DNA from: Alphaproteobacteria bacterium
GTDB lineage: Bacteria; Pseudomonadota; Alphaproteobacteria; DSM-16000; Inquilinaceae
Length of the DNA: 64,000 bases
Reading direction: 5' to 3'
Assembly: GCA_028281265.1 (NCBI GenBank)
Contig: JANQKE010000188.1
Coordinates: forward strand, 62,001-126,000
Each line of letters starts with the position of its first letter. The stretch's first letter is position 1. The translations under genes and the position numbers were made by a program. Of the stretch, positions 27,009-62,357 are shown one piece after another. The notes below the pieces were generated by a model. It was not told where the DNA came from and searched no databases. It was given only the letters and a program-made list of their open reading frames with translations.

Positions 27009-27056
27009 GGCGCCGGGTCATACGGCAATCCGCCGGAACCGGCCACCGCCCCGGTG

Positions 27057-27118
27057 CCCGCCCGTCCGATACCCGCCCGTCCGATACCCGCCCGCCCCGG
27101 TGCCCGCCCGCCCCGGTG
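27057..27118 (+). repeat. Short tandem repeat, 15-16 bp units
   Basis: Two copies of CCCGCCCGTCCGATA (27057-27086) are followed by two copies of CCCGCCCGCCCCGGTG (27087-27118). The rest of the 489-base gap between the ATP-grasp and amylosucrase starts holds no convincing gene, only a repeat element, the palindrome and a Cys-rich open frame with no good start. AGAGGGACC just before 27321 is the ribosome-binding site of amylosucrase. Confidence 0.8.
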
Positions 27119-27320
27119 CCCGTCCGATCGTGCGTCACCGGCGCCCGGCCAGCCGGTCTGCGCCGGCTGCACGGCCTGCCTGCGCGGGGTCTGCGCGCAA
27201 CCGGCATGCGGGGGGTGCGTTTGAAGCCGTGGAATGTCCCCGTTACACCCGCCCAATCCGTAAAAAGCCGCCGGACCTTGACCGCCCGCGCACCCGCACC
27301 ATCCGGCCTGGAGAGGGACC

Positions 27321-44260: not shown

Positions 44261-45034
44261 TCAATCCAGGATGGCGACGGCGCGGGTGAAGCCGGCCGAC
44301 GCCGCCTTGATCTTGAACGGGAAGCAGGACAGCGTGAAACCGGTCGCCGGGAGCCGATCGAGATTGGTCAGCTTCTCGATCTGGCAGTAGCCGATGTCGC
44401 GGCCGGCCTTGTGCCCCTCCCAGATGATCGAGGAGTCGCGGGTGTCCTGCCAGCGCTTGGCGGTGTGGATGAACGGCGCGTCCCAGGACCAGGCGTCGGT
44501 GCCGACCACGCGCACGCCGCGTTCGGTCAGGTAGAGCGTCGCCTCTCGGCCCATGCCGCAGCCCTTGGTGAGGTAGTCCGGCTGGCCGTAGGCCGCCCCG
44601 GCGCTGGTGTTGACCACGACGATGTCCAGCGGCCGGAGCCGATGGCCCACCCGGGCCAGCTCGGCCTCCAGATCGGCGGCTGTGACCAGGTAGCCGTCGG
44701 CGAAATGGCGGAAATCGAGCTTCACGCCCGGGGCGTAGAACCACTCCAGCGGCACCTCGTCGATCCGCAAGGCCGGTTTGCCGCCGTCCTGGGTCGAGGC
44801 GTAGTGGTAGGGCGCATCGACATGGGTGCCGTTGTGGGTCTGGATCTTGAGTTTCTCGATCGCCCAGCCTTCCCCGTCGGGGAGCTGGTCCGGCGTCATC
44901 CCGGGGAAGAACTTCACGACATCCGGGGCGGACTGCCTGTGGTCGATATACTCGATCTCCGGGGTGTAGCCGGGCGGGTCCGAGGCGATGTCGGCCTCCA
45001 GCGAGACCGAAAGGTCGATGAAGCAGCGGGCCAT
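44261..45034 (-). CDS. Cyclase family protein (kynurenine formamidase-like)
   Basis: A 257-residue metal-dependent hydrolase. The family metal motif is KIQTHNGTHVDAPYHY, followed by TSAGAAYGQPDYLTKGCG and GTDAWSWDAP. Relatives open formylkynurenine or cyclic amides and lactones. CTGGAGGGAGAGG precedes the ATG. It lies directly downstream of the TRAP transporter genes and before a toxin-antitoxin pair. Confidence 0.88.
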   Translation of the reverse strand: MARCFIDLSVSLEADIASDPPGYTPEIEYIDHRQSAPDVVKFFPGMTPDQLPDGEGWAIEKLKIQTHNGTHVDAPYHYASTQDGGKPALRIDEVPLEWFYAPGVKLDFRHFADGYLVTAADLEAELARVGHRLRPLDIVVVNTSAGAAYGQPDYLTKGCGMGREATLYLTERGVRVVGTDAWSWDAPFIHTAKRWQDTRDSSIIWEGHKAGRDIGYCQIEKLTNLDRLPATGFTLSCFPFKIKAASAGFTRAVAILD

Positions 45035-45061: not shown

Positions 45062-46366
45062 CTACAGCAGACCGGTGGCCAGGCCCGGAAAGGCCACCAC
45101 CAGGGTCAACACGAACAGCATGACCAGCGCGAACGGCGCGGCACCGGCGAAGATGTCGCCGAGCGACACGTCCATGTCCGACAGGGTGCCCTTGATCACG
45201 AACACCGACAGGCCCAGCGGCGGGGTCAGAAGCCCGATCTCCACCGCCAGAACGGTGATGATGCCGAACCAGACCAGATCCAGACCCAGGGCCTGGGCGA
45301 TCGGCAACGCCAGCGGCAGGACGATCAGCATGATCGAGGACGCGTCCAGGATCGTCCCCATCACGATCAGCAGCAGCACATAGGCGGCGATGAAGCCGTA
45401 GATCCCGATCTCGGCAGCGATGATCCATTCGGTCACGGCCGTCGGCAGGCCGCTCATCGACAGCATGCGGCTGTACATGGTCGCCGCGACGATCAGGAAG
45501 CAGATCGACGCGGTGATGTGGCCGGTCTCGATCGTGACCTTCCACAGGCCCCTGAGCGGCAGCCGGCGCTTGGCGACGGCGAGCACGATCGCCCCCAGGG
45601 CGCCGACCGCACCGGCCTCGGTCGGGGTGAACAGCCCGCCATAGATCCCGCCCAGGACCAGGGCGATCAGGAGCGCGATCGGGGCGACCTTGGCGGCCAG
45701 GCCGAAGGCGGTGTCCTCGCCCGGATCCGCGGGCACGGCGCGGCCGGTGAAGCCCGGCAGCCGGGTCGCCAGCAGCCAGATCATGACGCTGAACGCGGCC
45801 GCCAGGACCAGGCCCGGCAGCACGCCGGCGATGAACAGGTCGCCGACCGACTGCTCCGACAGGACCGCATAGAGGATCAGCAGCAGCGAGGGCGGGATCA
45901 GCATCCCCAGGACCGAGGAGCCGGCGACCACCCCGGTCGCGAACCGCTTGGTGTGGCCGACGCGCAGCATCTCCGGCACCGCGACCCGGGCGAACACGGC
46001 CGCCGAGGCGATCGAGATGCCGGTGATCGCCGCGAACAGGGTGTTGGCCCCGACGGTCGCGATCCCCAGGCCGCCCTTGATCCGGCCGAAGGCGCGGTTG
46101 GCGACGTCGAACGTGTCCCGGCCGATCTGGGCCTGGCTCACCACCAGGCCCATCAGCACGAACAGCGGCACCACGCCGAAGATGTAGGAGCTGATGCTGT
46201 CGTTGATCGACAGGGAGAGCAGGCGGCCGGCCAGAACCGGGCTGTCCCGCATCAGCCACACGCCGATGAACGAGGTCAGCGCCAACGCGATGGAGACGTG
46301 CAGGCCGGCATAGACCAGTGCGACCATCACCGCCAGCGAGCCGATGCCGATCTCAAGCCCGGTCAT
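45062..46366 (-). CDS. dctM: TRAP transporter large permease (DctM)
   Basis: A 434-residue membrane protein with about 12-13 helices. DctM features include GVPLFVLMGLVVSQAQIG, VAGSSVLGMLIPPSLLLILYA and LDLVWFGIITVLAVEIGLLTPPLG. It forms the sodium-coupled channel for an organic acid delivered by the DctP-type binding protein. It overlaps the small permease gene by 14 bases. Confidence 0.93.
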   Translation of the reverse strand: MTGLEIGIGSLAVMVALVYAGLHVSIALALTSFIGVWLMRDSPVLAGRLLSLSINDSISSYIFGVVPLFVLMGLVVSQAQIGRDTFDVANRAFGRIKGGLGIATVGANTLFAAITGISIASAAVFARVAVPEMLRVGHTKRFATGVVAGSSVLGMLIPPSLLLILYAVLSEQSVGDLFIAGVLPGLVLAAAFSVMIWLLATRLPGFTGRAVPADPGEDTAFGLAAKVAPIALLIALVLGGIYGGLFTPTEAGAVGALGAIVLAVAKRRLPLRGLWKVTIETGHITASICFLIVAATMYSRMLSMSGLPTAVTEWIIAAEIGIYGFIAAYVLLLIVMGTILDASSIMLIVLPLALPIAQALGLDLVWFGIITVLAVEIGLLTPPLGLSVFVIKGTLSDMDVSLGDIFAGAAPFALVMLFVLTLVVAFPGLATGLL

Positions 46367-46942: not shown

Positions 46943-48001
46943 TTACTCCTGGTCCCAGTTGCGCGGCAGGTCGATGCCCTCGTCGCGCAGCGCCTCCATG
47001 AAGGCGGTCAGGACCGTCGAGCCGGGCAGGCCGCGGCCGTCGGCTTGTGCGGCCCATTGCTGCGGGATGTTGGGCAGGGCCGCGGCCCAGCGCGCCCGCT
47101 CCCCGGCCGAAAGATCGGTGATGGTCGCCCCGCCGGCCTCCATCGCCGTCAGGGAGCTGTTCACCCGGTCGACCAGCTCGATCGTGAAGGCCAGGGTGTA
47201 GTCTTCGGCCCCGACCCGCAGGGCGTCCTGCACCTCGGCCGGCAGCGTGTCGAACCACAGCCGGTTGGCGACGACGGAGCCGGCGTACTGGGCACCGAAA
47301 TCCGTCTGCGTGACGTAGGGCGCCACCTCGTACAGGCGGGCCGGGGCGGCGGCGGTGGGGAAGACGACGATGCCTTCGAACACGCCGGTCTGCACGTCGT
47401 TGTAATAGGTGGTCAGGTTGCCGGAGACCCCGACCGCCCCGGTGCCCTCCAGCCAGTTCACCGCCGGGCCGGGCGCGCCGATCTTGCGGCCGGCGAGGTC
47501 GTCGAGGCTGTCGACCGGGAACGTGGTCATCAGCAGATAGTTGTCCAGGGCGAAGCCGCCGCCGAGATATTCGAGGTCGAACGCGTGCCAGCTCTCCGCC
47601 ACCCCGGGCACGGTGTCGTGCAGCATGTCCATGATGTCGGTGATCAGGATCGGGTCGGACGTGCCGAACGGGCTGACATAGGTGACGTTCTGCAGCGGCA
47701 GGTTCGACGGCTCGAACACCGTCGGCACCACGCCGACCTCCGCCAGGCCCGCTTCCAGCGCTTCCAGCTCACCGCCGACCGAGGCCAGCGAGCCGCCGTA
47801 GAACTCGGCCCATTCGATCGCGTAGTCCGAGCCGGCGAGTTCCCGATCGACGGCCGGAATGAACGTCTCGGTCAGGTGCTTGACCCACAGGAAGATCGGC
47901 GGGTGGCCGTTGACCACGTTGACCTGAAGGGTCTGTTGTGCCGCCGCCGGCCCGGCGGCCAGCCCCAGCAAAGCGGTCCCGGCGAGAAGCAAACCACGCA
48001 T
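46943..48001 (-). CDS. dctP: TRAP transporter solute-binding protein (DctP type)
   Basis: A 352-residue periplasmic binding protein with a signal peptide (MRGLLLAGTALLGLAAGPAA, cut after AAA). Typical DctP parts are the Arg in LAGRKIGAPGPAVNWL, DVQTGVFEGIVVF and VANRLWFDTLPAEVQDAL. It would capture an organic acid. It begins 12 bases after the TetR gene, so regulator and transporter share a transcript. Confidence 0.92.
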   Translation of the reverse strand: MRGLLLAGTALLGLAAGPAAAQQTLQVNVVNGHPPIFLWVKHLTETFIPAVDRELAGSDYAIEWAEFYGGSLASVGGELEALEAGLAEVGVVPTVFEPSNLPLQNVTYVSPFGTSDPILITDIMDMLHDTVPGVAESWHAFDLEYLGGGFALDNYLLMTTFPVDSLDDLAGRKIGAPGPAVNWLEGTGAVGVSGNLTTYYNDVQTGVFEGIVVFPTAAAPARLYEVAPYVTQTDFGAQYAGSVVANRLWFDTLPAEVQDALRVGAEDYTLAFTIELVDRVNSSLTAMEAGGATITDLSAGERARWAAALPNIPQQWAAQADGRGLPGSTVLTAFMEALRDEGIDLPRNWDQE

Positions 48002-48013
48002 GACTATCCTCCC

Positions 48014-48703
48014 TTACGATGATTGTGCGGTGGGGGTCGGACCGGCAGCGCCGGACCGACCGGAAACGACCAGTGCCCGCAGCCCGGCGCACAGAAACGG
48101 CACCACGCGGGCGATGATCACGTCGGGGTCGTCGTCGTCGCAGACCCCGTCCGACAGGGTGGCGGCCCGTCCCGTCCGGGCCATCACCGACAGCGCCACC
48201 CCGATGCAGTAGAGATAGCCCCGCACCGCCGAAGGCCGGTCGAGACCGGGCAGGGCGGTCTGCAGGGCGTCGATGTAGCGCCGAGCGATCGCGTCGTAGT
48301 GCCGGCTGGTCAGCAGCCGCGACCGCCCGTCCGAACCGTTGGCCAGGGCGACGATCAGCTTGGCGTAGTGGGCGCCGCCGCGGGCGTCGTCGTGGCCGAG
48401 CTCGATGGTCGGCCGAAGCAGGGCTTCGACCACGGCTTCCAGGTTCGGCGTGCCGCCGGCGAGCAAGGCGTCGAGGCCGTCGTCCCGGCGGAGGTTGATG
48501 TCGCCGGCCCGGCGTTCGATGACGGCGGAGAACAGCCCGTCCTTGCTGTCGAAATAATAGTGCACCAGGGCCTGGTTGACCCCAGCCTCCCGAGCGATCG
48601 CCCGCATCGACGCCCCGCCATAGCCGAGCTCGGCGAACAGCCGTTCGGCGGCATCCAGGATCGCCGTGCGGGCGTCCTTGTGGGCGAGATCCCCTTGGGG
48701 CAT
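48014..48703 (-). CDS. TetR family regulator of the TRAP/BKACE operon
   Basis: A 229-residue regulator with an N-terminal helix-turn-helix (ASMRAIAREAGVNQALVHYYF, residues about 32-52) and an all-helical ligand domain. It is the first gene of the minus-strand operon. Two tandem palindromes at 48726-48786, upstream of its start, are good candidates for its own operators. It likely releases the operon when the imported acid or a derivative is bound. Confidence 0.92.
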   Translation of the reverse strand: MPQGDLAHKDARTAILDAAERLFAELGYGGASMRAIAREAGVNQALVHYYFDSKDGLFSAVIERRAGDINLRRDDGLDALLAGGTPNLEAVVEALLRPTIELGHDDARGGAHYAKLIVALANGSDGRSRLLTSRHYDAIARRYIDALQTALPGLDRPSAVRGYLYCIGVALSVMARTGRAATLSDGVCDDDDPDVIIARVVPFLCAGLRALVVSGRSGAAGPTPTAQSS

Positions 48704-48725
48704 CGTGGCGTCTGCTCTCCCATCC

Positions 48726-48786
48726 GGAGCGGATCGTCGTCCGCTTCTCGTTTCATTGAACGCCGGAGCGGATCGTTGTCCGCTCC
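48726..48786 (-). promoter_or_regulatory. Tandem TetR-type operators
   Basis: A 39-base unit occurs twice back to back (48724-48762 and 48763-48801; 34 of 39 bases match). Each holds a palindrome with 8-base arms and a 6-base spacer. In the second unit GGAGCGGA and TCCGCTCC are perfect; in the first one arm base differs. They lie 23 bases upstream of the tetR start, as expected for autoregulation. No convincing -35/-10 pair was assigned. Confidence 0.7.
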
Positions 48787-48833
48787 CTGTTTCATTAAAC
48801 GATTGACGAAATCACCGATGCGAGTCAAGCCCT

Positions 48834-48896
48834 CCCGTCTCCCGTCTCCCGTCTCCCGTCTCCCGTCTCCCGTCTCCCGTCTCCCGTCTCCCGTCT
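48834..48896. repeat. Heptanucleotide tandem repeat, nine perfect copies of CCCGTCT
   Basis: Nine identical 7-base units run without a mismatch. The array starts at the stop codon of the amidotransferase gene and ends about 130 bases upstream of the tetR start, next to AGTCAA (a minus-strand TTGACT) at 48823-48828. Perfect arrays of this kind change length by slippage. Confidence 0.97.
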
Positions 48897-49617
48897 ACTC
48901 GATCGGTTCCCGGACGTGATGGACGGGGTGGTGACGCTCGTGGACGGCGTGCACGAAGGCACGGAAGAGCCCGCGGAAATGGCCCCGGTGCAGCAGGAAC
49001 TCGGGGTGGAACTGCACCCCGACCAGGAACCGGTGGTCGAGATCCTCGATCGCCTGGACGGTGCCGTTGGCCTCCCGGGCCGCCACCCGCAGGCCGGTGC
49101 CGAGCCGGTCGATCGCCTGGGTGTTGAGGGCATTGACCCATAGCGACGCCTGCCGGGTGATCCTGGCCAGCCGGCTGCCCGGCTCCACCGTGATCCGCTT
49201 GCGGAAGGAGATCGCGGGCCAGATGCCGGGGCCGGGATAGTCCCTGGCGTGATGGACCTGCCGGGCATCGAGGTGCAGGGAGCCGCCGCGCGTCACGTTG
49301 ACCAGTTGGAGGCCGCGGCAGATCGCCAGGATCGGCAGATCCTGGGCGAGCGCACGGTCCAGCCAGTCCGCCTCCAAGGCGTCCCGATCGGGCTCGTAGC
49401 GGTACCCCGGCTTGGCCTCTCCGCCGTACCGGCCGGGCTCGACGTCGGTGCCGCCGCTGAACAGGACGCCGTGGACGGTCTCGGGCGATCGCGGGTGCCG
49501 GGGCGTCAGCGGTACCGGCTCCCCGCCGGCCTGCCGGATGGCGGTGTAGAGCCAGAAGTCGGCCGAATCCCAGCCTCTCCCCGACCCTGTGACGGCGATG
49601 CGGGGGCGGACGGCCAT
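48895..49617 (-). CDS. Class I glutamine amidotransferase-like hydrolase (peptidase C26, PuuD type)
   Basis: A 240-residue protein with the nucleophile elbow ILAICRGLQLVNV and the His-Glu pair in VGVQFHPEFLLH. HGVLFSGGTDVEPGRYGG matches the gamma-glutamyl hydrolase/PuuD branch. It would cleave a gamma-glutamyl amide. It lies 3 bases after an ATP-grasp ligase gene. Its stop codon runs into the heptanucleotide array, so array changes do not alter the protein unless the stop is read through. Confidence 0.9.
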   Translation of the reverse strand: MAVRPRIAVTGSGRGWDSADFWLYTAIRQAGGEPVPLTPRHPRSPETVHGVLFSGGTDVEPGRYGGEAKPGYRYEPDRDALEADWLDRALAQDLPILAICRGLQLVNVTRGGSLHLDARQVHHARDYPGPGIWPAISFRKRITVEPGSRLARITRQASLWVNALNTQAIDRLGTGLRVAAREANGTVQAIEDLDHRFLVGVQFHPEFLLHRGHFRGLFRAFVHAVHERHHPVHHVREPIE

Positions 49618-49620
49618 CGC

Positions 49621-50937
49621 TCAGCGCCTCAGCTCCGCCGGCAGCTCGCCATAGCGCAACAGCGAGCCGAGAATGAACAGCACGCCCAGGCCGACCAGCG
49701 GGTCGTCCTGATCCGCGGCGATGGTGTCGATCGCGCGTGCATCGGCGATCTGCCGCTTGAGCGTCTGGAACGCCTGCCGCAGGTCCAGCCCGCCTTCGCG
49801 ATGCTCCCCGAACCGGCGCAGCCCGTCCTCGAGAGTGCCGGCGCCCAGCCGGCTCAGCAGGGTGGCATGGGTCTCGGCATGGTCGTCGCCGGCATGGCCC
49901 TCCCTGGAGGCCGTCTCCAGGGCCGCCAGCAGCCAAAGCCCGGGCAGCTTGCTGCGGTAGCCGATCTTCGCCCCGGGGACCGCGGCGACCCGGCCGGTCA
50001 CCGTCGCCTCGTACAGCAGCCAGGGGAAATCGATGCCCGACCCCACCGAATGGTCGAGATTGGCCCAGAAGCGCGGGTTCACTTCGATCAGCAGCGGCGC
50101 GTCGTCCTCGCGCCCGGTCCACATGAAATCGATCTCCGCCACGCCGGTCCAGCCGGCCCGGGCCAGCAGCGGTGCGGCGGCGTCCCGGAACCGGTGGTGC
50201 CGGACGGTCTCCCGCACCACCCCGGCGCCGAAATCGGCCGGGTAGTTGACCACGTTCCGGTATGCCATGTCGGTAACGAGGTCACCGTCGATCGCCAGGA
50301 CGCAGTAGCAATAGTCGGCGCCCGGCGCGATGGCCTGGACGACCGGCGTCCCGGGATAGTGCTGGCGGATCGTCCGCCAGGCCTTGCGCGCCGCCTGGGC
50401 CGTCTCCGCCTTGGCGATCCCGCGGCCGCCGACCGCGTCGGCCGGCTTGACCAGGCAGGGGAAGGTCATCTCGGCCAAGGCGTCGGCCAGGTCCCGCGCC
50501 GTCTCGCAGGCGAAGGACAGGGGCGTGCTCAGCCCGAGCCGCCGGGCGGTCCGGGCCAGCGTGTCCTTGGGGTCGACCGTGCCGATCGCCGCTGCCGGCG
50601 GGGCGGTGACCTTGATATGCGGGGCGAACCGGTCGGCGTGTCGGGCGATCAGCTTGGCGTCGTTGAACATCGGCATCAGCACATAGGGCCGGTCGTCCTC
50701 GGGACGGTGCTCCAGCACGATGCGTTCGAGATCGTTGATGTACAGGTACGGATCGAGCGCGGCCCGCTTGTGCACCAGGGTCTTGTCCACCCATTTGGAG
50801 AAGGACAGGGCGGTGAAGTCGACATCGTCGAGGCCGATCACCTCCACCCCCCGCCGCCCCAGGGACTGCGCCGCGGTCACGGCCATCAGGGACCGGCCAT
50901 AGGTGATCAGCACTCGGCCCTGGGAGAGGTCCTGCAT
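49621..50937 (-). CDS. ATP-grasp ligase paired with an amidotransferase
   Basis: A 438-residue protein. The N-terminal part (VLITYGRSLMAVTAAQSLGRRG, then VIGLDDVDFTALSFSKWVD) is a preATP-grasp fold. The ATP-grasp core has FPCLVKPADAVGGRGIAKAE and the metal site VAEIDFMWTGREDDAPLLIEVNPRFWANLDHSVGSG. A C-terminal helical region of about 110 residues has no recognised family. It resembles carbamoyl-phosphate synthase-like ligases that join amino acids to unusual acceptors. The gene precedes the C26 hydrolase by 3 bases, so the two should act on related compounds. Confidence 0.87.
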   Translation of the reverse strand: MQDLSQGRVLITYGRSLMAVTAAQSLGRRGVEVIGLDDVDFTALSFSKWVDKTLVHKRAALDPYLYINDLERIVLEHRPEDDRPYVLMPMFNDAKLIARHADRFAPHIKVTAPPAAAIGTVDPKDTLARTARRLGLSTPLSFACETARDLADALAEMTFPCLVKPADAVGGRGIAKAETAQAARKAWRTIRQHYPGTPVVQAIAPGADYCYCVLAIDGDLVTDMAYRNVVNYPADFGAGVVRETVRHHRFRDAAAPLLARAGWTGVAEIDFMWTGREDDAPLLIEVNPRFWANLDHSVGSGIDFPWLLYEATVTGRVAAVPGAKIGYRSKLPGLWLLAALETASREGHAGDDHAETHATLLSRLGAGTLEDGLRRFGEHREGGLDLRQAFQTLKRQIADARAIDTIAADQDDPLVGLGVLFILGSLLRYGELPAELRR

Positions 50938-61301: not shown

Positions 61302-62270
61302 CTATTCCGGTCTGATCACGGTCATCAGTTCCCGCCATTCCCGCGCGCTCATGCCGCTTGTGGCCGGCGTCACCGGCTCGCCGGCAAGCATGCGGCGCAC
61401 CACCTGGACGGCCTGCGACGACAGCGTCGCCGCGTCGAGCCGATAGTCCCGGAACGCCCGGGCGGTCATCGGCACCCATCGCTCCAGCACGTCGACCATG
61501 ACCTCGGCATAGGCCCGGATCTCATACTGTGCATGATCGTCTGCCCGTAACCGCAGGAAATGCATCAGGTTATGGAGATCGGTCTTCCAGTACCACTGGG
61601 TATAGGTGTTGAGGGTCAGGTTCATCCGGGCCAACTCCCGGGCCAGGCCCTGACGATCGGGATCAAGCGCCGCACCGGCTTCGTCCGCGTTGAGCATCGT
61701 CTGATAGTGGCGGTAGGTCCGTTCCGCATCGGCCCGCAGCAGCGCCAGCACGTCGGCCGCCTCGTCCCCGTCCAGGACCTCGCCTCGCCCCTGCCGGTTG
61801 CTGTCCGACTGCGCGGCCAGTTGCGCCGGATCGGGGATGTAGAATTCCTTGTCGAGCACCGAATAGCGGGCCGAGTACTCGTTGACGTTGGCGGTCCGGT
61901 GACGGATCCACTGCCGGGCGATGAAGATCGGCAGCTTGACGTGGAACTTGATCTCGCACATCTCGAACGGTGTGGTGTGCCAGTGCCGCATCAGGTAGCG
62001 GATCAGTCCTTCGTCGTTGCGGACCGATTTCGTGCCCTTGCCGTAGGAGACCCGGGCCGCCTGCACCACGGCCGCGTCGTCGCCCATGTAGTCGACCACG
62101 CGGACGAAGCCGTGGTCGAGCACGGGCAGCGGCTGGAACAAGAGGGCCTCCACCGCCGCGACGGTCGGGCGCAGGGTCGGCGTGGGCTGTGAGCGGGCGT
62201 GCGCGATCTCGTCGGCCTGATCCCGGGTCAGCCGGTTGCCGGTGAGGGCGCTGGGGGGGTCATGGGTCAT
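61302..62270 (-). CDS. thyX: ThyX, flavin-dependent thymidylate synthase
   Basis: A 322-residue enzyme with the ThyX motif in [18 protein letters not shown], plus [20 protein letters not shown] and [16 protein letters not shown]. It methylates dUMP to dTMP with FAD and NADPH. The length suits alphaproteobacterial ThyX (about 300). No thyA is seen in the window. Confidence 0.95.
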
Positions 62271-62357
62271 GGCTCATCCTGACGGTCGGACCGAAGGCCG
62301 GGTTGCGAAAGCGGGGGGTGAGGCCGGACGGCGCCCGACTCCGGGCCCGGCCGGAGA

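Follow-up and report, generated by a model that had tools for sequence, protein, structure and literature searches.

The window, the whole 64-kb stretch of DNA that was analysed, contains a heptamer array whose neighbouring genes are all encoded on the minus strand. In the direction of transcription the order is an ATP-grasp gene, an amidotransferase gene, the array, tetR, dctP, dctQ, dctM and a cyclase-family gene. The features are as follows:

49621-50937, minus strand: ATP-grasp protein, encoded 3 bp ahead of the amidotransferase gene
48895-49617, minus strand: class-I amidotransferase, gamma-glutamyl-GABA-hydrolase-like, Peptidase_C26/GATase (Pfam PF07722, 6e-44; PF00117, 1e-11)
48832-48896, minus strand: perfect heptamer array, 9.3 x GGGAGAC (period-7 run, CTCCCGT on the plus strand)
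48823-48828, minus strand: TTGACT, candidate -35-like hexamer found by eye on the tetR side of the array, 3 bp away
48724-48801, no strand assigned: a pair of 39-bp direct repeats that are 87% alike and both contain a near-perfect palindrome of the AGCGGAYRACGATCCGCT type
48014-48703, minus strand: TetR-family regulator (TetR_N + TetR_C_30; Pfam 1e-18 and 3e-28)
46943-48001, minus strand: TRAP solute-binding protein DctP (Pfam PF03480, 1e-15)
45062-46366, minus strand: TRAP large permease DctM (Pfam PF06808, 7e-81), with DctQ encoded just upstream
44261-45034, minus strand: cyclase-family gene

The maximal period-7 run (48832-48896) is 65 bp long, comprises 9.29 units and has 100% matches with no indels. 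The nine perfect heptamers at 48834-48896 in the preliminary description are real and represent the nine whole units of this run. The array is the top tandem repeat of the window (TRF score 130), and 58 of its bases match themselves at period 7, compared with 9 for the longest such run elsewhere in the window, which puts a chance origin out of the question. The window also contains, at 27046-27126, a 16-bp GC-rich unit (CCGCCCCGGTGCCCGC) in approximately five imperfect tandem copies, and three imperfect GGGTCAT units at 62257-62277, which lie over the start codon of a 322-amino-acid ORF (61302-62270, minus strand) that, judging by motif, may encode a ThyX-type thymidylate synthase.

The stop codon of the amidotransferase gene, TAG, occupies 48897-48895 and its AG forms the first two bases of the array run. 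The array therefore opens the 3′ untranslated region and reaches the stop codon, its G-rich strand being the coding strand of both the amidotransferase gene and tetR. Its other end is separated from the tetR start by 128 bp that contain no gene, and tetR and dctPQM run in the same direction; tetR is presumed to be the first gene of a tetR-TRAP operon. The ORF coordinates and the Pfam identities of the neighbours confirm the placement originally given, between the amidotransferase stop and the tetR region.

The preliminary description further suggested that copy number upstream of the tetR-TRAP promoter tunes transcription, as at the hmw genes, making the TRAP operon phase-variable. In Haemophilus influenzae the ATCTTTC array of hmw1A/hmw2A is located between promoters P2 and P1, where it overlaps the P2 -10 and the P1 -35 elements, and its copy number has been shown to set expression (PMC8262952). 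The array described here is likewise a perfect, slippage-prone 7-bp tandem array upstream of a gene, with no gene in the interval to tetR, and as TTGACT starts 3 bp beyond it a weak promoter effect is possible. This hexamer has no good -10 at normal spacing, a sigma-70 consensus scan found no site and no core promoter element is recognisable in the array. Unlike at hmw, where the array overlaps promoter elements, a change in its length would not alter a -35/-10 spacing (PMC8262952). It also differs from the hmw array in touching the stop codon of the preceding gene, in its G-rich unit and in being repeated genome-wide, and genes for TRAP uptake are not among the typical contingency genes.

The interval between the array and tetR also contains the two 39-bp repeats, whose palindromes are at 48726-48747 and 48765-48786 and each of which carries a TT(T/C)AATGAAAC box. 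These repeats are likely to be paired TetR operators, and as candidate operators between the array and tetR they are a further point in favour of the hmw-like reading. Two hairpins had been flagged as plus-strand terminators; as no gene is transcribed into them on the plus strand, they were rejected as terminators and are read as operators.

The array sits within contig C38 of a 4.33-Mb genome assembled in 232 contigs. A census of this genome by pattern searches, with the reversed patterns as control, found 73 matches to GGGANNCx3, 95 to RGGARNCx3 and 112 to RGGWRNYx3+RGG; each reversed control gave 0. The matches group into approximately 12 loci, nearly all intergenic, in which the arrays are pure or mixed and consist of the units GGGAGAC, GGGAGCC, GGGAACC, AGGAACC, AGGAGCC and GGGTGAC, with unit sequence and copy number drifting from locus to locus. 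Sister arrays are found behind xseA, gap, parC, rsmB-guaA and others, neighbours that have no function in common. Such a pattern would be expected of a genome-wide repeat rather than of a contingency locus, as the arrays follow unrelated housekeeping genes, with approximately 11 loci in addition to the present one and no confinement to regulated genes. Together with the absence of a recognisable promoter element in the array, this speaks against hmw-like control of the TRAP operon, which we regard as improbable. Perfect heptamers in front of an operon thus do not in themselves make a phase-variation switch.

The array on contig C35 has 19 units with a recurring five-unit, 35-bp block, and this higher-order period reads as the mark of block duplication. 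Six array copies terminate contigs (C13, C70, C35, C14, C102 and C194), which indicates that some arrays outgrew the reads. C13 ends with rsmB and an array, while C70 ends with an array upstream of guaA; since rsmB is directly followed by guaA in 4/4 relatives, the two contigs most likely flank a single array, 26 units long or more, which the assembly did not cross. The rsmB-guaA gene order also suggests that the host is an alphaproteobacterium. The rsmB ORF itself (locus L038, 3996-5456, contig C13) continues into an array of GGGAGAC/GGGAACC/AGGAACC units; this array seems to have engulfed the stop codon that was originally there, extending the protein by a repetitive C-terminal tail of approximately 35 residues, the frame of which would be shifted by 7-bp slippage. 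Behind a merR gene (L178, 4269-4500, contig C134), heptamers form a complex and degenerate field of GGGTGAC/GGGAGCC/AGGAGGC units in a higher-order pattern, with the stop codon TGA inside a GGGTGAC unit.

The location of some sister arrays at contig ends could be taken as a sign of an assembly or sequencing artefact. The present array, however, is inside a 147.7-kb contig, is below the usual read length and has unique flanks, and GGGAGAC is also the unit of arrays at independent loci and in numerous genomes that are unrelated, which leaves an artefact a negligible probability. Spread of the heptamers by a mobile element, MITE-like or repetitive-extragenic, would fit the presence of approximately 12 scattered copies in this genome and their absence from its relatives. 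Against this, a comparison of the heptamer-masked 400-bp flanks between loci showed no similarity above chance (it gave self-overlaps and one 21-bp match at chance level only), no terminal repeats were seen and the units differ by locus. A mobile-element origin is largely refuted by the unrelated masked flanks and we consider it very improbable.

The array is a member of a lineage-specific, genome-wide family of quadruplex-capable heptamers, found mostly in 3′ untranslated regions; it probably slips and is probably near neutral, a reading that we consider likely. G-rich heptamer arrays would gain and lose units through replication slippage, or through G-quadruplex-stalled replication with unequal exchange. 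Here such an array would have come to occupy the beginning of the 3′ untranslated region of the ATP-grasp/amidotransferase operon, reaching as far as the stop codon. Judging from the sequence, its copy number probably varies; it would mainly be neutral, or would slightly alter the 3′ end of the amidotransferase mRNA or its read-through, and tetR-dctPQM would have a promoter of its own downstream of the array. The perfect array, its family, its placement and the sister arrays at assembly breaks are observed, and slippage in vivo, quadruplex formation, near-neutrality and a separate tetR promoter are what we infer. The preliminary description had noted that such arrays slip and had offered a neutral minisatellite as the alternative to hmw-like control; slippage and this alternative agree with the perfect homogeneity of the array, the assembly-breaking sister arrays and the 35-bp period. 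The array would be usable as a strain-typing marker.

G-quadruplex-forming heptamers have been described by Rehm et al. (2015) in Xanthomonas (GGGAATC) and Nostoc PCC 7120 (GGGGA(C/T)T), where phase variation was judged unlikely and no regulatory role was found (PMC4692102). The present array shares with that class a tandem 7-bp unit, GGG tracts at 7-bp spacing and at least four units, and its family is likewise dispersed over the genome and mainly non-coding (approximately 12 loci). Because its units are GGGAGAC/GGGAGCC/AGGAACC and not GGGNATC or GGGGA(C/T)T, it is assigned to a broader G3N4 class and not to the GGGNATC family proper. The family also differs in size, with approximately 12 loci compared with more than 180, and in its host, an unrelated lineage whose relatives lack the arrays. 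In the marine Beggiatoaceae, dispersed intergenic direct repeats of a heptamer are similarly found, and are abundant; their unit, TAACTGA, is not G-rich and is proposed there to belong to a post-transcriptional regulatory network (PMC4679880).

Quadruplex formation, which for the Rehm class is judged in vitro by CD spectroscopy, is predicted here by computation. Four units give the motif G3N4G3N4G3N4G3, and the nine-unit array has G-tracts for two quadruplexes, which is also the arrangement preferred by the folding model when quadruplex energies are used. The array has a G4Hunter score of 1.26, and its modelled MFE falls from -6.5 to -17.3 kcal/mol once RNA quadruplex energies are included. 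GGGAGACx4 and the experimentally studied GGGAATCx4 have equal model energy (-8.36 kcal/mol) and G4Hunter scores of 1.29 and 1.14, respectively. With GGGAGCC a hairpin is the structure favoured by the folding model, and for AGGAACC a three-tetrad (G3) quadruplex is impossible; quadruplex formation is consequently not common to the whole family in this genome.

The heptamers of Xanthomonas and Nostoc follow a rule of position and strand: they lie up to 50 bp after the stop on the coding strand, or before the start on the non-coding strand (PMC4692102). The present family conforms to it, with the array touching the stop codon and 7/12 loci having an array no more than 40 bp after a stop codon on the sense strand, the genes at the other arrays having been called with a simple codon-usage ORF caller. 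For a random intergenic strand position, with our own gene calls, the null expectation of such a stop-proximal sense location is 0.066, and a conservative value, if intergenic DNA is scarcer, is approximately 0.18. The binomial tail is 3e-6 with a null of 6.6% and 0.002 with 18%. This enrichment right behind stop codons could reflect a 3′-end function instead of mere tolerance.

Such a function would consist of RNA quadruplexes that slow 3′ exonucleases or RNA polymerase and insulate tetR-TRAP from read-through. The shared sense-strand site directly behind the stop is consistent with it, as is the predicted quadruplex stabilisation of the amidotransferase-tetR transcript (MFE -62.4 to -76.3 kcal/mol), and most of the heptamer repeats of X. 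axonopodis pv. citri are transcribed (PMC4692102). On the other hand, the same gene pairs occur in relatives without an array, no GGGARMC array is present in the other genomes searched, and the drift in unit and copy number between loci extends to units such as AGGAACC. No uridine tract was found on the minus strand of the array. A functional 3′-end element is given as a possible but unlikely account of the array. At the present locus, only one of the three best amidotransferase matches among relatives (genome G001) keeps the ATP-grasp/amidotransferase pair, and there it occurs without the array and without tetR/TRAP genes behind it, which makes that locus uninformative on a regulatory role of the array.

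GGGARMCx4 arrays were found in 1/385 genomes of the class, namely this one. Other members of the class have at most one G3N4 heptamer array each, with units such as GGGCAGA, GGGCGAG and GGGATGT, and GGGGTTT is another G3N4 unit that occurs elsewhere as a single array. Beyond the class, GTDB genomes carry GGGAGACx4 in no fewer than 119 stretches spread over many phyla; the hosts include Gemmatimonadetes, Acidobacteria, Actinobacteria, Bacteroidetes, Myxococcota (Sorangium), cyanobacteria (Microcystis) and Gammaproteobacteria. This patchy distribution fits repeated independent expansion. A special attraction of the GGGAGAC unit was considered and rejected: among 96 genomes the reversed control was found in 3 and GGGAGAC in 1, and the occurrence of other G3N4 units as single arrays elsewhere also leaves it unsupported.

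Most arrays in the cross-phylum sample are intergenic. Those no more than 50 bp from an ORF have it on the 5′ side of the G strand in 19 cases and on the 3′ side in 4 (p = 0.003), an asymmetry that was noticed post hoc among loci that are not fully independent and with crude gene calls. An overall strand preference was rejected (14 sense and 19 antisense in tandem gene pairs), as was a general bias in 5′ versus 3′ distance (30 vs 25, flat in a plain sign test); since these broader tests are flat, the close-range asymmetry is treated as a secondary, after-looking observation. None of 24 cross-phylum arrays (0/24) lies within 50 bp upstream of a start on the coding strand, which would be explained if Shine-Dalgarno-like GGGAG repeats, or quadruplexes, are avoided in 5′ leaders.

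One reading of this pattern is that G3N4 arrays arise repeatedly in unrelated phyla by a directional process tied to gene ends, with the 5′ end of the G strand at an ORF boundary, and that the present genome is one in a recent burst, with the arrays serving as RNA or DNA quadruplex elements at mRNA 3′ ends. We consider this doubtful; if true, G3N4 arrays would be a general, so far unexplained gene-end element. The present family provides a new, independent lineage-specific example that, with the cross-phylum sample, repeats the stop-codon and strand rule of Xanthomonas and Nostoc, and it makes a further system available for testing why heptamer repeats sit at gene ends. The longest array in the cross-phylum sample, 36 perfect GGGAGAC units, is from Peptococcaceae bacterium BICA1-7 (L087, 3094-3345), where another 13 GGGAGAC units are found at the edge of the same locus.
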